Below are positions 4,173 through 40,929 of a stretch of 40,929 nt of DNA, piece after piece (the first letter of the stretch is position 1; every line of letters begins with the position of its first letter). Under the pieces are notes generated by a model, which was not told the origin of the DNA, made no database searches, and saw only the letters and a program-made list of their open reading frames with translations. Made by a program: the position numbers and the translations under genes. Location of the stretch: positions 1 through 40,929 of the forward strand of contig JAHIPI010000078.1 of NCBI GenBank assembly GCA_018894435.1. Reading direction: 5' to 3'. The stretch comes from Candidatus Omnitrophota bacterium. GTDB taxonomy: Bacteria > Omnitrophota > Gorgyraeia > JAHIPI01.

Positions 4173-5225
4173 TTACGTAACCTTGAGTTTCTCTCTTATT
4201 AAATCCGCCCTCTTCATATCCCTCTCTGAGGAAGAAAGTTTCTTGCCTTCCAATTTCTGAAGGTGCGCCGGCTGTGTAAATATAAAAAGTTCATTAAGTA
4301 TCTTTCTGTCTATATCGGTTATTATGCTGATATCTACCCCGAGCCTTATAAGCGAAAGCAGCCTTATGGTCTCGTCGCTGGTAATAATCCTCGCGCTCTT
4401 CAATGTCCCGTAGGCCCTCCATATCCTATCGTATACCGATGCCCTGCTATTAGTCAGAAGGTAGTCTCTTGCGCTTTTTTCTCTCCCTATTACCTGATTG
4501 ATCAATTTTTCTATATTATCTATTATATCTTCTTCCGAGCGACCCAGAGTAACCTGGTTTGATATTTGAAAGAAATTACCGCTGGCCTCACTGCCTTCAC
4601 CGTAAAGGCCTCTTGCGGTAATACCGAGTTTTATTACTGCCTGCAGCACCTTGCCTATCTGATTGGTTATCACCAGGGCCGGAAGATGCATCATAACCGA
4701 ACTCCTCATGCCCGTTCCTATATTTGTAGGGCAGGCGGTGAGATACCCCCACCTTTCCGTATAACAGTAATCGAGTTTGGTTGCCAGATCATTGTCAAAA
4801 GCGTCAATTATGCGCCATGTATCCGCCACATTAAATCCTGATTGTATGGCCTGAGCCCTTATATGGTCTTCCTCATTTATCATAACCGAGATTATTTCTC
4901 TCTCATCTACCGCGAGCGCTTTGGATTCGTCGGCTAGTGCGTGTTCCCTGCTCATAAGATGCCTTTCGATAAGAAATAATCTGTCAACCTCGTCCAAATC
5001 TGTTATCCTGACAAACAAAGCGTTTTTCATATCTTTAGAATTAGTTATAGCGTCCTTTGCTTGCGAAAGGATTTCCATCCTTTCTTTTTTTCCCGACCAT
5101 TGGCAGAAGGGATGGTCCTTGATATTCCTGGCTATGCGGACTCTGCTTGATATTACTATATCGGCATTAGGCCCTGTGCCTTTCAGCCATTCACCCGGTT
5201 TATTGACCAGATCATTTATATTCAT
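4173..5225 (-). CDS. mcsB: McsB protein-arginine kinase
   Basis: A 350-residue ATP:guanido phosphotransferase of the McsB type. It shows the phosphagen-kinase signature SSRVRIARN near residue 26, an acidic NEED motif near 117-120, CPTNIGTGMRSS with Cys165, and the GEGSEASGNFFQISNQ loop near 209-224. The catalytic core is intact. McsB phosphorylates arginines on proteins, marking them for ClpC. The ATG overlaps the mcsA stop (ATGA). Activity normally requires McsA, which is encoded immediately upstream. The C-terminal domain continues through to about residue 350, so this is a full-length protein. Confidence 0.95.
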   Translation of the reverse strand: MNINDLVNKPGEWLKGTGPNADIVISSRVRIARNIKDHPFCQWSGKKERMEILSQAKDAITNSKDMKNALFVRITDLDEVDRLFLIERHLMSREHALADESKALAVDEREIISVMINEEDHIRAQAIQSGFNVADTWRIIDAFDNDLATKLDYCYTERWGYLTACPTNIGTGMRSSVMMHLPALVITNQIGKVLQAVIKLGITARGLYGEGSEASGNFFQISNQVTLGRSEEDIIDNIEKLINQVIGREKSARDYLLTNSRASVYDRIWRAYGTLKSARIITSDETIRLLSLIRLGVDISIITDIDRKILNELFIFTQPAHLQKLEGKKLSSSERDMKRADLIREKLKVT

Positions 5226-5725
5226 TTTTTACCTTCTTCGCGTTCGTACTTTTTGATCTCGTCCCTCAGCTGTGCGGCTTCCTCAAACTCCTCAAGTTCT
5301 ATTGCGCGTTTTAAACGCCGCTTTAATTGCTCAACATCGACCTTTCTGCTTTTCGTAAGTTTGCCTTTCTTGCCGGGGGCCTTCCCCAGATGGATCTCCG
5401 AGCCGTGGATCCTCTTTAATAAAGGCGCCAAATATGTCTTGAATGTTTCATAGCATTGGCCGCAGCCTAATCTTCCTATCTTTTTAAAATCAGTGTAGGT
5501 CATACCGCAGGAAGAACATTTGACTTTTTTATCTTTCATCGTCTCTACGGGAGTGTCTAAATTGGCGAGGCCCGCCAATAGATCGGCAAGGCCGAAATGT
5601 TCCTCCATCTCCGCGCCTTTCTTTTTGGCGCATTCCTCGCAAAGATGAAGTTTAGTCATCTGTTCATTTATAATCTCTGTAAGATGGACTGTCGCTTCAT
5701 TCTTGCCGCAGATATCACAAAGCAT
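5222..5725 (-). CDS. mcsA: McsA zinc-binding activator of McsB, with UVR domain
   Basis: A 167-residue protein with four CxxC pairs (C3/C6, C29/C32, C70/C73, C88/C91), forming two zinc-binding modules, and a C-terminal UVR motif (about 133-165, rich in Glu/Leu/Arg). This is the standard McsA plan. It activates McsB and links it to ClpC. It overlaps mcsB by four bases and lies 20 bases downstream of a HAMP membrane protein gene. In Firmicutes the repressor gene ctsR precedes mcsA; here it does not. Confidence 0.94.
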   Translation of the reverse strand: MLCDICGKNEATVHLTEIINEQMTKLHLCEECAKKKGAEMEEHFGLADLLAGLANLDTPVETMKDKKVKCSSCGMTYTDFKKIGRLGCGQCYETFKTYLAPLLKRIHGSEIHLGKAPGKKGKLTKSRKVDVEQLKRRLKRAIELEEFEEAAQLRDEIKKYEREEGKK

Positions 5726-5745
5726 TATATATCTTCTCCTCTAGG

Positions 5746-27794: not shown

Positions 27795-28514
27795 TTACCC
27801 GCTGGGCACCCTCACCTCTTCTTTTGAAAGAGGAACATTAGTGGTACCCGCACAAGGATTCGAACCTTGGACCTTGACATTAAGAGTGTCCTGCTCTACC
27901 AACTGAGCTATGCGGGCATTAATTCTATCTTCTGCATTATCAAAGACTTGTGAACTCGGTAATTCTTCTGCCTCTTCAGCCATGGGCTCTGGTGTCCAAA
28001 TAGTGTCCATTTGCTTGCTTAAAACATCAACTGCCCGCTTCTTATGGTCTGGCGATAGGTGGCTATACCTTAACGTCATTTCAAGGCTCTTATGCCCTAA
28101 TAATTCCCTAACAGTGTTTAAATCTATACCAGCCATCACAAGCTGTGATGCGAATGTGTGCCTTAAATCATGAAAGTGAAAGCCGATTATACCAGAATTC
28201 TTCATAGCGGTCAAGAAAGATTTCTTTATATCACCATAAGGTTTACCGTCTTTATTGCAGAATACATATGGGGAATCGCCATGTATGGTAATTTCAGTTA
28301 ATGCTCTCTTCGCCACACTATTAACCGGCACTTCCCTCTTTTCGCCGTTCTTAGTGTCTAATAAATGAATTGTATCATGCCTAAGGTCAATATTAACCCA
28401 TTTAAGTCCTAAAATCTCACCTTTTCGCATCCCTGTATTAAGAGCTAATATTACTATTGGCTTAAGATGTGGGGAACAATTATTCACCAATTTCGGTATT
28501 TCCTCCTTTTCCAA
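27795..28514 (-). CDS. Tyrosine recombinase (XerC/phage-integrase type), N-terminally truncated, reading through tRNA-Lys
   Basis: The catalytic domain is complete: Arg in LNTGMRKGEIL, Lys in TKNGEKREVP, HDLRHTFAS, LGHKSL and Tyr in TLRYSHLS. The N-terminal core-binding domain is missing; a TGA stop lies in frame about 13 codons upstream of the first ATG. Residues after about 195 (INARIAQLVEQDTL and on) are translated tRNA-Lys sequence, so the natural C-terminus was probably altered on integration. It sits at one end of the element bounded by 39-bp repeats and is the likely integrase, perhaps inactive. Confidence 0.8.
   Translation of the reverse strand: MEKEEIPKLVNNCSPHLKPIVILALNTGMRKGEILGLKWVNIDLRHDTIHLLDTKNGEKREVPVNSVAKRALTEITIHGDSPYVFCNKDGKPYGDIKKSFLTAMKNSGIIGFHFHDLRHTFASQLVMAGIDLNTVRELLGHKSLEMTLRYSHLSPDHKKRAVDVLSKQMDTIWTPEPMAEEAEELPSSQVFDNAEDRINARIAQLVEQDTLNVKVQGSNPCAGTTNVPLSKEEVRVPSG
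27842..27917 (-). tRNA. tRNA-Lys (CTT)
   Basis: A 76-base tRNA with encoded CCA. Acceptor GCCCGCA pairs with TGCGGGT (one G-U), D arm GCTC/GAGC, anticodon loop CTCTTAA giving CTT, T arm CAAGG-TTCGAAT-CCTTG. The anticodon stem GGACA/TGTCA has one mismatch at its outer pair. Its first 39 bases are repeated perfectly at 30616-30654, so its 5' half was probably supplied by an integrated element. It lies entirely inside the recombinase open frame. Confidence 0.93.
27879..27917. repeat. Attachment-site repeat, copy 1 (5' half of intact tRNA-Lys)
   Basis: A perfect 39-bp direct repeat with 30616-30654. It covers tRNA positions 1-39, from the mature 5' end through the anticodon loop. The two copies bound about 2.7 kb containing recombinase genes, as expected for attL/attR of an element integrated at the anticodon loop. 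Confidence 0.85.
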
Positions 28515-28657: not shown

Positions 28658-28870
28658 CTATTGCTCAACTCGTTCTGACGTAAGGAAAGTACTTCCGCGA
28701 CACAAAAAGACGTATCTACCAGAGGGTACTAAACAGAGGGCTTCGGTTAGTTTTTCTTCGCTGTAAGGTTGAAAGATGTTGATAGTTTTTTGTATGAGTT
28801 CTTTGGAGCGTATTAGGCTATCGACCTCCTGCGCCAAGAGGCCATAACTCTTTCTTAAGAATTGGTACAA
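28658..28870 (-). pseudogene. Unrecognised short open frame inside the mobile-element end, copy A
   Basis: A 70-residue open frame (MYQFLRKSYGLLAQEVDS at the start, ending TSERVEQ). The frame stays open upstream to the very end of the repeated sequence (28886). Its first part overlaps the sequence shared with 40870-40929, where the corresponding frame is broken by TAG. I do not recognise the product. It may be part of a degenerate insertion sequence or an incidental frame. Confidence 0.3.
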
Positions 28871-28886
28871 CTTCCAGGGCAGGTCA
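28827..28886 (-). mobile_element. Mobile-element end, copy A (IS3-like terminus)
   Basis: Starting at 28886 on the minus strand: TGACCTGCCCTGGAAGTTGT and on. About 60 bases match copy C (40870-40929) closely, and the first 40 match copy B (37841-37880). TGxxCTGCCCC...AAGTTGxAC resembles the terminal inverted repeats of IS3-family elements, as I recall them. A coding-looking frame from the other side stops at this boundary. Confidence 0.55.
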
Positions 28887-29826: not shown

Positions 29827-30105
29827 TTATATTAACAGTCGATAATTCTCTACTCCTAATGTATTATACCTCATTTCGCTATAGATATAAAGACATAAAA
29901 TATCCTTATATATACGTTCAAAACGGCATTTCTCTTTCAAAAAATTTTCATTTTTTTCGAAATTGAGGGCTTCCAGCTTCTTCACGTCTTCCTTCATAAA
30001 CTCCGTCGGCACGTGGGCGTATTTCATAGTGTCGCCTATGTCGGAGTGGCCGAGAAGCTCTTTGACCTTGTAAATGTCAACACCATGCTTAACAATGCTT
30101 AACAA
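29827..30105 (-). pseudogene. C-terminal remnant of a second tyrosine recombinase
   Basis: The first 40 residues (HGVDIYKVKELLGHSD, MKYAHVPTEFMKEDVKKLE) match the last catalytic segment of XerC/D-type recombinases, with LGH and the nucleophile Tyr in MKYAH. Reading upstream in frame gives a degraded stretch (SIAASLFLLSIVKHG) and then a TAA in place of the expected HDLRH box. The arginines and lysine of the active site are absent. This is a dead fragment, not a functional enzyme. Confidence 0.75.
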
Positions 30106-30615: not shown

Positions 30616-30654
30616 ATTAAGAGTGTCCTGCTCTACCAACTGAGCTATGCGGGC
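30616..30654 (-). pseudogene. tRNA-Lys 5'-half remnant; attachment-site repeat, copy 2
   Basis: 39 bases identical to tRNA-Lys positions 1-39. After the anticodon loop the sequence diverges (TCGACCCGGGCT), so no 3' half exists. It marks the far boundary of the integrated element and presumably keeps the original chromosomal tRNA promoter upstream. A CAGCCCG-AGA-CGGGCTG hairpin lies at 30511-30527, on its downstream side. Confidence 0.88.
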
Positions 30655-36086: not shown

Positions 36087-36977
36087 TTAAATGGTTTTCC
36101 CGGTAAGTATAGAAAGGGCCCTGAAGTATTTTTTGCCCGTCTTTTTTATTATATCTTCGGGTAGTTCCGGAGCGGGCGGAGTCTTGTCCCAGTCAAGCGT
36201 CTCCAGGTAATCGCGCACGAATTGTTTATCAAAACTCGGCTGCGGCCCGCCAGGCTTGTATTCATCCTTCGGCCAGAAACGCGAGGAATCCGGCGTAAGG
36301 ATTTCATCGATAAGGATGGTTTTTCCGTCATGTGTGCCAAATTCAAATTTTGTATCCGCGATGATTATGCCTTTTGACTCTGCGTATTGGCTTGCCTTCG
36401 TATAAATAGCAATGCTCATCCTTCTCAGCTCTTCGGTAATGCCTCTCCCCAGCGACTTTTCTACATACGCTTCGGACACGTTTATATCATGCCCCTCTTC
36501 TTCCTTGGTTGATGGAGTAAAGATCGGCTCCGGCAGTTTATCGGATTCCCGAAGCCCTTTTGGCAGTTTGATTCCGCAGATAGATTGGGTCTTTTTGTAC
36601 TCTTTCCATCCGGAACCGGAAAGATATCCGCGTACGACACATTCTACGGGCATGGACTTTGCTTTTTTTACCAGCATGGAGCGGCCTTTCAAAATATCCT
36701 TATATTTTTGTAAAGGCTCGGGGAAATCTTCTACATTTGCCGAGATAAAATGGTTGGGGATGATATCCTTGGTGAACTCAAACCAAAATAAAGAAAGCCG
36801 GGTAAGTATTTCGCCCTTATGCGGTATGCACGTCGGCAGGATAACATCAAAACAGGATATCCTGTCGCTTGAGACAACCAGAAGCTTATCCTTTAAATCA
36901 TAGACATCGCGGACTTTGCCTCTTTTGAAGAGCTCTATATCCTTAAATTCTGTTATGCGTAATGTTTCGCTTATCAT
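36087..36977 (-). CDS. purC: SAICAR synthetase (PurC)
   Basis: A 296-residue SAICAR synthetase of the longer, ADE1-like type. It has [24 protein letters not shown] near the N-terminus, [18 protein letters not shown] near 105, [12 protein letters not shown] and [16 protein letters not shown] near 205-230. It acts in purine synthesis, joining CAIR and aspartate. No ribosome site is visible. The promoter predicts transcription starting only about six bases before the ATG, so the message may be nearly leaderless. An earlier in-frame ATG would overlap the promoter. Confidence 0.94.
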
Positions 36978-36989
36978 ATGTGGATATCT

Positions 36990-37017
36990 ATTATAACTCA
37001 ATCACGGCTGGAAACAA
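36990..37017 (-). promoter_or_regulatory. purC promoter
   Basis: Minus strand TTGTTT (37012-37017), 16 bases, TATAAT (36990-36995). A close copy of this whole region occurs at 37571-37617. It is divergent from the promoter at 37031-37059. Confidence 0.65.
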
Positions 37018-37030
37018 GGAAAATTTTGCC

Positions 37031-37461: not shown

Positions 37462-37572
37462 CTAAAAACGAGAGCGTGTCACTATTTGACACGCTCTCGT
37501 TTTTTTTTCGACTAGGAACAAATCTGGGGTCCCAGTGGAGTGTCACCCAAGGGAACCTCTCGGTTTATATAG
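37462..37572 (-). ncRNA. Possible small RNA between the duplicated promoter and the terminator
   Basis: A transcript from the promoter at 37579-37606 to the terminator would be about 110 nt. It contains GGTTCCC...GGGACC arms enclosing TTGGGTGACACTCCACT, and then the terminator stem. I know of no family match; it may be noise from promoter duplication. Confidence 0.3.
37466..37508. terminator. Strong bidirectional intrinsic terminator
   Basis: A perfect 13-bp stem, CGAGAGCGTGTCA/TGACACGCTCTCG, around CTATT, with a T tract on the plus strand and an A tract on the other side. It ends the small-protein operon and could also stop minus-strand transcripts from the promoter at 37579-37606. Confidence 0.92.
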
Positions 37573-37617
37573 GTATCTATTATAGTCCGATTACGGACGG
37601 AAACAAGCAAATTTTGC
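37571..37617. repeat. Duplicate of the purC promoter region, with promoter at 37579-37606 (minus)
   Basis: TATCTATTATA and GGAAACAAG blocks align with 36982-37029 at matching spacing. The minus-strand TTGTTT (37601-37606), 16 bases, TATAAT (37579-37584) is preserved. Downstream of it, on the minus strand, lie about 110 bases and then the bidirectional terminator, with no open frame. Confidence 0.7.
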
Positions 37618-37840: not shown

Positions 37841-37880
37841 CTCTCTCTTAAAAACTGGTACAACTTCTAGGGGCAGGTCA
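37841..37880 (-). mobile_element. Mobile-element end, copy B
   Basis: On the minus strand from 37880: TGACCTGCCCCTAGAAGTTG and on, about 40 bases shared with copies A and C. The P-type ATPase remnant ends exactly here. Beyond 40 bases the match to the other copies is lost, so this is a degenerate or solo end. Confidence 0.55.
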
Positions 37881-37968
37881 CCTCCTCCTCAGTAAGGCCC
37901 GTAGCCCTTGTCTGAAGGTATGAAAAAACCTCTACTATTGACTGCTGATACCATTCTAATCTTTTCAT
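37881..37968 (-). pseudogene. P-type cation ATPase, N-terminal remnant
   Basis: From the ATG at 37968: MKRLEWYQQSIVEVFSYLQT followed by RATGLTEEE, then the mobile-element end. The pattern W(Y/H)xxSxxEV...L.T...GLTEEE is the cytoplasmic N-terminus of calcium/cation-pumping P-type ATPases. Only about 29 residues survive. A GGTAGGTAG stretch upstream could be its ribosome site. The rest of the gene is absent downstream. Confidence 0.6.
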
Positions 37969-37997
37969 TTTTCTACCTACCGCCTTACTAAATTGAA

Positions 37998-38096
37998 CTA
38001 AAAGCTTATAAAACTAATTTCCCCGCGCGCTATCATGATGCCGCCGACTTCTGGCGATGCAGGACCAAGCGTACAGATTATCTTAGTTTTAACCAT
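37998..38096 (-). pseudogene. pyk: Pyruvate kinase remnant with internal deletion
   Basis: A 32-codon frame: MVKTKIICTLGPASPEV, then GGIMIARGEI, then SFISF and a stop. The first part is the pyruvate kinase N-terminus (TKIxCTLGPAS). The second resembles its much later DGIMVARGDLG active-site motif. The roughly 200 residues normally between them are missing, and the reading ends soon after. AAGGGA precedes the ATG. It lies just downstream of the glucan phosphorylase gene. Confidence 0.65.
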
Positions 38097-38123
38097 AGAA
38101 TCCCTTCATAGCACCTGGCTTAC

Positions 38124-39818
38124 TCATAAATAAGCATTTAACACATATTCCTGAACCATTCTCTGAGTATTAAAAAATGAGGCGTTCAACGCTATCGCAT
38201 GGCGCATAACTTCAAGCCATTTATCTTTGTCTTTGTAAAACATCGGGATGATTATATTTTCTAATTTCTGATATAAATCACGGGCATCTTGAGCGCTGTC
38301 CGTATTCTGCTTTTGTGATGAGCCGATTGCCCAGCCGGTGACATTCTCAATACATCCCTCTATCCACCAGCCGTCCAAAATACTTAAATTCGGCACACCG
38401 TTAAGGCAAGCTTTCATTCCGCTTGTACCGGATGCCTCTTGCGGCGGAAGCGGGGTATTTAGCCAGAGGTCAACACCAGCAGTAATCAATTTCCCTTGTG
38501 TCATATTGTAATTTTCAAGATAGGCAATTTTGATTTTTGGATTGAGCTCTTTCATTTTTGAAAATATCTTCTTTATCAGTTCCTTGCCGCCCCCATCCTT
38601 AGGATGAGCCTTTCCCGCATAAATGATTTGCATCCTGCCTGCCTTGTCATTAATCTCAACTAACCGGTTTATATCGCTTAATAAAAGGTCTGCTCTTTTA
38701 TAGGCTGTGGCGCGCCGGGCAAAACCTATAGTAAAGGTATCGCAGTCCATATCAATACCTGTGCGGGCATTTACATAATCAATAAGCTCTTTTTTTGCCT
38801 CAAGGTGCGCCTGAAATATTTCCTCTTTAGAGATACTCAAGGCGTAACGCAAGGAAAAATAGTCTGATTGCCAGCCGGGAATATATTTATCGTAAAGCTT
38901 TTTGAATACAGGAGACACCCAAGTCAGCAAATGAATACCGTTGGTAATAGAATCTATGGAATAACCAGGAAACATCTCCCGCGTCACTTCGCCGTGTTTT
39001 TTAGCTACCCCGTTGACGTATTTACTCAGATTTAAAGCAATTAAAGTCATATTCATTTCGTTACCCCGGATAAATATATCGGGCATTTTAAAAGGTAAAT
39101 CGCTGCGCAGAGCCCTTTTTACAAAGTCAAGGGGAAACCGGTCATGTCCGGCGGCTACAGGCGTATGAGTGGTGAATATACATTTATTTCTTACGGATTC
39201 AAGGTCATATTTTTTATAAATATCCGTCTCAATGTCTTTTTTTGTCCTCTCCAGTAATTCCATTGCCAAAAGACTGGCATGGCCTTCATTCATATGGTAT
39301 TTCTCGATATTTTTATAGCCGATAGCTTCGATTGCCCTCAACCCCCCTATACCAAGGATTATTTCCTGACAAAGGCGATACCACTGGTCGCCTCCGTAAA
39401 GAAAACTGGTTAAGGTACGGTCATATTCAGCGTTTTCAGCAAGGTTTGTGTCCAGAAAATAAACAGGCACAGTTGCTCCGGTAACCCCCTTTACAATATA
39501 TTCCCAAATCCGAAGCGTGATTTCTCTTGCCTCAATATTTACAGCTGCTTTTACCGGCAAAGGGGTTAAAAACTCCTCTTTTGACCAGTCTACAGGAAAC
39601 TCTGTCTGGCTACCTTGTGCATCCAGCTTTTGCGCAAAGTAGCCTTTTTCATTAAGTAAAGTTACGGCAATAAGCGGCACGCCTAAATCCGCGCAGGATT
39701 TTAGAGTATCTCCTGCCAGAACTCCCAATCCACCGCTATAAGTAGGCATCCTGGGGTCAAATCCCGCTTCCATTGTAAAATATGCGATCTTTCTTTTCTC
39801 TAGCTCTTGTTTATTCAT
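38124..39818 (-). CDS. glgP: Alpha-glucan (glycogen) phosphorylase, short form
   Basis: A 564-residue phosphorylase of the short bacterial/archaeal type. It starts near IAYFTMEAGFDPRMPTYSGGLGVLAGD, with HMNEGHASLLAMELL near 175, FTTHTPVAAGHDRF, SITNGIHLLTWV, GFARRATAYKRADLL, and the PLP-lysine motif EASGTSGMKACLNG near 463. It releases glucose-1-phosphate from glycogen or maltodextrin. It lacks the long N-terminal extension of muscle/GlgP-type enzymes, as expected for this subfamily. GAGGT precedes the ATG. It follows the serine hydrolase gene by 32 bases. Confidence 0.93.
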   Translation of the reverse strand: MNKQELEKRKIAYFTMEAGFDPRMPTYSGGLGVLAGDTLKSCADLGVPLIAVTLLNEKGYFAQKLDAQGSQTEFPVDWSKEEFLTPLPVKAAVNIEAREITLRIWEYIVKGVTGATVPVYFLDTNLAENAEYDRTLTSFLYGGDQWYRLCQEIILGIGGLRAIEAIGYKNIEKYHMNEGHASLLAMELLERTKKDIETDIYKKYDLESVRNKCIFTTHTPVAAGHDRFPLDFVKRALRSDLPFKMPDIFIRGNEMNMTLIALNLSKYVNGVAKKHGEVTREMFPGYSIDSITNGIHLLTWVSPVFKKLYDKYIPGWQSDYFSLRYALSISKEEIFQAHLEAKKELIDYVNARTGIDMDCDTFTIGFARRATAYKRADLLLSDINRLVEINDKAGRMQIIYAGKAHPKDGGGKELIKKIFSKMKELNPKIKIAYLENYNMTQGKLITAGVDLWLNTPLPPQEASGTSGMKACLNGVPNLSILDGWWIEGCIENVTGWAIGSSQKQNTDSAQDARDLYQKLENIIIPMFYKDKDKWLEVMRHAIALNASFFNTQRMVQEYVLNAYL

Positions 39819-39850
39819 CTTCTTCTACCTCAAATCAACATCAGTAGACA

Positions 39851-40774
39851 TTACAATTGCTCAAAATAGTTATAAACATGCAATGCAATCTTAGCGATAA
39901 ATTCCTTTGATGGAGCGCTTGTAGAATTCGCGTGTTTCGTTAATACCACAATAATAAAATCGCCTTTATGGGTAAATACTAATCCTACATCATGGCAGAT
40001 ACCGCGTTCTAGACCAGTCTTGTGAGCAAGCAGAGTTTCAACTGGTAGATATTTTGATAGACGATCATTAATCCGTTGCAACTTCAGAAGCTTTATACAT
40101 TTTTCAGAAATATCCTTATTTACCAGGACTCGTCTATATATATTCTCCAGTATCAGAGCCATATCTTCTGCTGTCGTATAATTCTCAAGCCCGGCATCCC
40201 TTGATTTATAATCGGCTATCTTTCGCGAAAGCTCGGTGTTTTTCAACCCAAATGCCTCAAATGAATTATTCAAATAATCAATACCAACCATATTGGTAAG
40301 TATATTGGTTGCGGTGTTATCGCTGTCATAAATCATAAGGCCGATGAGCCTCTCCACGCTGAAAGTGGTGCCTGCAGGCATATCCTTCAATACCCCTGAG
40401 CCGGTAAGTTTATCCGTAGATTTAAGCGCGACATTACGGTCAAGCTTAATTCTCCCTTGGTCAGCCGCCAAAAAACATGCCGCCATAAGAGGGATTTTGG
40501 CCAAGCTTGCCGAAGGAAACAGTTTATCCTTCTCGCAAGAAAGTCCCCACCCGGTTTCTAAATCCTTAATCACTATTCCGGTCTCGCCCTTAAAGTGGTC
40601 TATTTCACTCTTAATGCGTTGCTGGAGATCCTGCCATGCGGCTTTCCTTGCCTCATAGAGAAGCCGCTGTTGTTGAGTCTTTTGGAATCTAGCGTAATAC
40701 TGCCGGCCAAAATATGCTCCGACGCTCAATACAACAATAATTAAAATAAATAGAAATATGTTCTTTGCTTTCAT
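39851..40774 (-). CDS. Membrane-anchored class A beta-lactamase-like serine hydrolase
   Basis: A 307-residue protein with an N-terminal anchor helix (about 5-21), a coiled linker (25-60) and a serine beta-lactamase/PBP-type domain. Motifs: SxxK as SLAK (Ser90, Lys93), SDN at 151-153, and KTG at 252-254. The usual ExxLN omega-loop motif of class A beta-lactamases (Glu166) is not apparent; the region reads SRDAGLENYTTAEDM. It may be a peptidoglycan-related hydrolase or carboxypeptidase rather than an antibiotic-inactivating enzyme. The ATG overlaps the previous stop (ATGA). Confidence 0.85.
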   Translation of the reverse strand: MKAKNIFLFILIIVVLSVGAYFGRQYYARFQKTQQQRLLYEARKAAWQDLQQRIKSEIDHFKGETGIVIKDLETGWGLSCEKDKLFPSASLAKIPLMAACFLAADQGRIKLDRNVALKSTDKLTGSGVLKDMPAGTTFSVERLIGLMIYDSDNTATNILTNMVGIDYLNNSFEAFGLKNTELSRKIADYKSRDAGLENYTTAEDMALILENIYRRVLVNKDISEKCIKLLKLQRINDRLSKYLPVETLLAHKTGLERGICHDVGLVFTHKGDFIIVVLTKHANSTSAPSKEFIAKIALHVYNYFEQL

Positions 40775-40869
40775 TTTTCCTTAAGGGATATAAAATCCTC
40801 GCCCTCATTCCAGGCTATCAAATATTCGTTTTTTGAGGCGCATTCATTCTCAAAAACTCTCTCGTCAAT
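40771..40869 (-). CDS. C-terminal fragment of an unknown gene, cut at mobile-element end C
   Basis: Hand translation gives IDERVFENECASKNEYLIAW, then NEGEDFISLKEK and a TGA that overlaps the serine hydrolase ATG, a coupling typical of a real operon partner. Upstream, the frame stays open into the repeat and the window edge, but that part is repeat sequence. The gene seems to have lost its 5' part to the insertion. Family not recognised. Confidence 0.5.
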   Translation of the reverse strand: MDERVFENECASKNEYLIAWNEGEDFISLKEK

Positions 40870-40929
40870 TGACCTGCCCCTAGAAGTTGTACCAGTTCTT
40901 AAGAGAGAGCTATGGCCTCTGGCGCAGGA
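40870..40929 (+). mobile_element. Mobile-element end, copy C (runs off window)
   Basis: Plus strand from 40870: TGACCTGCCCCTAGAAGTTG, then sequence matching copy A through to the window end (GCTATGGCCTCTGGCGCAGG). It is in opposite orientation to copies A and B. The element body would lie beyond 40929. Confidence 0.6.

Follow-up and report, generated by a model that had tools for sequence, protein, structure and literature searches.

A 32-codon frame beside glgP in a Candidatus Omnitrophota genome, probably a deletion remnant of a pyruvate kinase gene

The window analysed here is a stretch of 40,929 nucleotides, positions 1 to 40,929 of contig JAHIPI010000078.1 in a Candidatus Omnitrophota bacterium (assembly GCA_018894435.1). 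On the minus strand, positions 38096-37998 encode MVKTKIICTLGPASPEVGGIMIARGEISFISF followed by a stop codon, a frame of 32 codons that begins 27 bp past the stop codon of glgP, the gene for an alpha-glucan family phosphorylase. A Shine-Dalgarno-like AAGGGA precedes its ATG (upstream sequence AAGGGATTCTATG). The preliminary description had read this frame, with its ribosome site, as the start of pyruvate kinase, the central sugar-burning enzyme, joined within a few codons to the GIMIARG motif; coordinates and frame were right, the strand is minus, and both segments match one pyruvate kinase gene (pyk). The 32-residue translation matches PF00224 at residues 3-18 only (E 0.011), and its score of 15.2 bits (cut-off 30) falls short of the PF00224/TIGR01064 definition of a pyruvate kinase, namely a complete barrel above the curated cut-off. 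Because the Pfam match is weak and covers the start piece only, the identity of the remnant as pyk rests on its syntenic relatives.

The remnant sits within a 2,989-bp block (37881-40869), the edges of which lie exactly at 40-bp inverted repeats, and all window sequence matching the glgP locus of the related genome G036 is found between these two ends. On one side of the remnant, glgP itself (38124..39818, minus strand; TIGR02094, 554.8 bits) is intact, in agreement with the preliminary description, and is adjoined by an intact beta-lactamase-like gene (PF13354; 39851..40774, minus strand); the OmpA-like gene that separates the two in G036 is absent here. Beyond them lies an internal 87-bp sliver (40783..40869, minus strand) of a 273-aa gene (G036 4924-5745), which is 87% identical and in frame, with about 1 kb missing between the sliver and the beta-lactamase-like gene. 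On the other side of the remnant, 37867..37968 (minus strand) is the stub of a P-type cation ATPase gene: read from 37968 to 37867 it gives MKRLEWYQQSIVEVFSYLQTRATGLTEEEVTCP and a stop, in which MKRLEWYQQSIVEVFSYLQTRATGLTEEE, the first 29 codons, is the start of the ATPase gene (904 aa when whole, in G036), and the last 4 codons and the stop are read from the insertion-sequence end. The remainder of the ATPase gene is absent from the rest of the genome.

The 40-bp sequence at one edge of the block (37841..37880; TGACCTGCCCCTAGAAGTTGTACCAGTTTTTAAGAGAGAG on the minus strand) resembles the end of an IS3-family element, and an inverted, 98% identical copy lies at the other edge (40870..40909, plus strand), 20 bp before the contig stops at 40929. 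At the same end in another genome, G344, the inner side codes for ETLLEAKVLVGRWKTEYNTIRPHSSLNYRPPAPEAI, the C-terminus of a transposase (rve_3, E 2.6e-9) with matches annotated as IS3 family transposase, and the window copy at 40870, read by eye, gives PAPEAIALS in the corresponding frame. Thus, with the block edges placed at the 40-bp ends and the inner side in G344 coding for a transposase C-terminus, the block appears to be bounded by ends of an IS3-family element, a feature that, like the ATPase stub, was absent from the preliminary description. The transposase C-terminus was found only in G344, and the outer parts of the window copies have decayed or are not on the contig. A third, decayed IS3-like 40-bp end (88%) occurs at 28848-28886, within an integrated region. 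There, a perfect 39-bp direct repeat (27879-27917 and 30616-30654) appears to be part of a tRNA gene and lies close to a phage-type integrase gene (27795-28514) and an integrase fragment (29827-30105); the two repeat copies look like the borders of a small integrated element.

The order glgP, pyk, P-type cation ATPase gene was identified in five distinct genomes, with all three genes intact over the available sequence. These are Candidatus Omnitrophota metagenome-assembled genomes (MAGs), namely G036 (L064), G315 (L060), G272 (L062) and G230, together with one MAG labelled Elusimicrobia (UBA6262; L061); G315 was equated with L060, and G272 with L062, through the identity of their pyk sequences. 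The pyk gene of these relatives has about 339 codons and encodes a barrel-only enzyme; in both of the sequences that were numbered, GIMIARG is at residue 234. In an alignment permitting long deletions, the window is collinear with the glgP-pyk-ATPase loci of the relatives, and both segments singled out in the preliminary description fall on a single pyruvate kinase at its own locus beside glgP.

Three slivers of pyk, all on the minus strand, were mapped in this way. Sliver A (38055..38126) takes in the spacer between glgP and pyk together with the ribosome site and codons 1-14 of pyk (VKTKIICTLGPAS). The start segment is 86% identical to G036 over 58 bp (E 5e-11) and 91% identical to G315 over 69 bp, and the coding part of the sliver differs from G036 at six positions and from L060 at six, all of them synonymous. 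Sliver B (about 38020..38048) holds the codons around GIMIARG, at residue 19 here as opposed to 234 in the relatives; GGCATCATGATAGCGCGCGGGGA, from 38042 to 38020, falls precisely on the GIMIARG codons of the G315/L060 pyk, with which it shares 22 of 23 bases. The weaker sliver C (37998..38020), AAATTAGTTTTATAAGC against AAATCAGTTTTATAACC in G036, resembles the last pyk codons and the original TAA stop, now out of frame. When 1000 shuffled sequences were scored, none scored as well as sliver A, sliver B or the ATPase stub; for sliver C against G036 none did as well either, but by the marginal difference of 28 against a shuffled maximum of 27, and the sliver has no match in L060. A candidate for a further sliver, GCCAGAAGTCGGC at 38055-38043, was rejected because 541 and 114 of 1000 shuffles were equally good. 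In total, about 14, 9 and probably 5 pyk codons are left here, compared with about 339 in the relatives.

The first junction, between slivers A and B, corresponds to a net loss of 215 codons (645 bp) that kept the frame, and the second to a loss of about 290 bp that shifted it. The internal deletion suggested in the preliminary description is borne out by the five relatives that carry the intact gene beside glgP, but one deletion is insufficient and at least two are needed. Nor is the remnant made of the two tips of the enzyme, as had been proposed: its second piece comes from inside the enzyme (a motif at residue 234 of about 339), and the real 3' end is probably the weaker sliver C. Two points count against the deletion reading: no source is assigned to some 7 bases lying between slivers A and B, and sliver C is short, with weak support.

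Elsewhere in the genome, a complete pyk of 342 aa, the only one, is present on contig C3 (126-1154; L001, G000:C3) and scores 438.2 bits against TIGR01064 (cut-off 306.4) and 369.6 bits against PF00224; the C-terminal PK_C domain was not found in it. In a phylogenetic tree this copy lies outside the clade of glgP-linked pyk genes (clade support 93/86, or 95/86 with the C3 copy added), and it adjoins a cluster of redox-regulator-like and hydrogenase-like genes, named by reading the sequences. A sequence at C4:1-84 that is 96% identical to the tail of pyk was rejected as a second pyk: the 3' end of the C3 gene and the start of C4 share 92 identical bases, and the two are taken to be one gene lying over a contig break. 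Most relatives' pyk, like the C3 copy, are barrel-only (about 340 aa, with no C-terminal PK domain), and forms of 470-500 aa occur in a few genomes of the class. Pyruvate phosphate dikinase (PpdK) is encoded on contig C80 (TIGR01828, 1138 bits). The genome search thus found both of the substitutes that the preliminary description had envisaged, another pyk and a pyruvate phosphate dikinase, and, given the complete C3 gene and the clear PpdK, the pyruvate kinase step is, as judged from gene content, not lost in this cell. A further 862-aa protein (L072 637-3225; G000:C84) has a PPDK_N-type domain after an N-terminal stretch that appears KaiC/RadA-like by eye; by the NCBIfam cut-offs it does not qualify as a standard PEP synthase.

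The overall explanation, which we consider very probable, is that the 32-codon frame is a deletion pseudogene of the glgP-linked pyk. An ancestral, complete, short barrel-only pyk would have stood between glgP and the cation ATPase gene, as it does in the relatives, and would have lost almost its whole length through at least two internal deletions (645 bp net, and about 290 bp). What is left, 14 codons of the start, a few at the active-site motif and, probably, the stop region, by chance forms an open frame of 32 codons. The ATPase gene would have been cut after about 29 codons at the insertion-sequence end. Loss of pyk would have been tolerated because of the second complete pyruvate kinase and pyruvate phosphate dikinase, and any 32-residue product is predicted to lack enzyme function. 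Since the coding differences in sliver A are all synonymous, most of the divergence probably accumulated while pyk was still under selection, and the loss would be late. We further infer that the block was carried or bounded by IS3-family copies and that its passenger genes decayed after arrival.

Could the remnant instead be a product of assembly? The missing parts of pyk and of the ATPase gene might exist in the cell, or the 3-kb block might have been misjoined at the 40-bp repeat from another community member. The block is flanked by two repeats at the end of the contig, its GC content is 0.416 compared with 0.452 for the rest of the window, GlgP and LysS have different closest relatives, and the source is a single metagenome-assembled genome; moreover, the same pyk junctions were found in no second genome among 384 of the class searched, and thus have no independent support against an assembly origin. 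However, none of the pyk junctions falls on a repeat, the block shows deletions at several distinct places, the slivers bear their own divergence from all relatives, and no other contig of this genome, rated 95% complete, carries the missing pyk or ATPase parts, nor was any other fragment of the glgP-linked pyk found elsewhere in it. We therefore regard an artefact as unlikely, and a misjoin would alter the ownership of the block, not the existence of the pyk relic.

The survival of the frame with its start codon and ribosome site would also be expected of a short frame that serves some purpose, for example as a small gene translated with glgP into a short regulatory peptide or leader, and the exclusively synonymous changes in the coding part of sliver A might be taken in the same sense. 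Selection on the full gene before its loss explains that pattern, however, and one third of random deletions keep the frame; the tail of the remnant is read in a frame not used by pyk, and the frame occurs in no other genome among the 384 searched, so that retention as a small gene appears very improbable. That an unrelated short frame merely carries two look-alike motifs would fit the Pfam result alone (15 bits, start piece only), but not the collinear DNA matches found where the relatives have pyk, after glgP and before the start of the ATPase gene, with scores reached by none of 1000 shuffles; synteny already refutes such a coincidence, the probability of which is negligible.

With respect to the origin of the block, GlgP is 83-88% identical to its counterparts in Candidatus Omnitrophota MAGs and UBA6262, with 87% identity to G036, a member of another family. 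LysS, encoded on the same contig, is 78% and 77% identical to G002 and G001, respectively, both of the same family, and only 61% to G036, whereas no GlgP counterpart was found in the three same-family genomes examined. The GC content of the G036 locus is 0.409, against the values for the block and the rest of the window given above. Because GlgP is 87% identical to that of another family, LysS is closest to the same family and the same-family genomes examined are devoid of this GlgP, the block (37881-40869) is probably foreign, derived from another Omnitrophota family. Horizontal acquisition appears to be the likeliest reading, although contigs misjoined at the 40-bp repeat would produce these signs too. 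As a marker of contig ancestry, purC (36087-37001) was dropped in favour of LysS, its patchy distribution making it uninformative: three same-family genomes contain only 31-35% matches and more distant genomes 70-74% matches, which suggests that two purC types have been exchanged. A 50-nt direct repeat (76%) lies over the purC start (36977-37026) and in the non-coding stretch before the block (37566-37615).

The dN/dS ratio of glgP relative to its relatives is approximately 0.09-0.11 (dN 0.071 and dS 0.81 against G036), values by which GlgP is under strong purifying selection. A fuller scenario, to which we give somewhat less than even chances, is that an IS3-bounded block moved glgP and its operon neighbours between Omnitrophota families, after which every passenger (pyk, the ATPase gene, the OmpA-like gene and the 273-aa gene) was lost or cut down, and selection preserved glgP and the beta-lactamase-like gene. 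If so, the locus would be a snapshot of selective pruning in a transferred operon.

To conclude, a redundant gene has decayed here in the ordinary way, and only the instance is new; literature searches found nothing on the present case. Annotation of this contig alone could suggest the loss of pyruvate kinase, which the lineage has not lost, and the locus offers a clear example of redundant passengers of a probably transferred operon pruned to slivers next to a useful glgP under purifying selection. Apart from the retention of pyruvate kinase and the pruning of the operon, it represents routine genome decay.

Among known systems, the element ends resemble IS3-family insertion sequences in the 40-bp terminal sequence, the rve_3-encoding inner side (in G344) and the inverted copies at the edges, but the window contains no complete element or transposase, one copy running off the contig and the other being an end only. 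The glgP-linked pyk of K_DeepCast_250m_m2_027 (L064 9543-10562) stands in the corresponding position, flanked by glgP and the P-type ATPase gene, and the start and GIMIARG codons of the Candidatus Omnitrophota glgP-linked pyk genes are collinear with the remnant and about 84-96% identical. Bacterial deletion pseudogenes likewise have recognisable flanks and both ends, with function lost and a functional copy elsewhere. Here, separate segments align in order with a single functional homologue at the corresponding position, essential parts are gone (215 codons at the first junction alone) and a functional substitute is encoded elsewhere. There is no fundamental difference from such pseudogenes, except that this remnant is still a short open frame.
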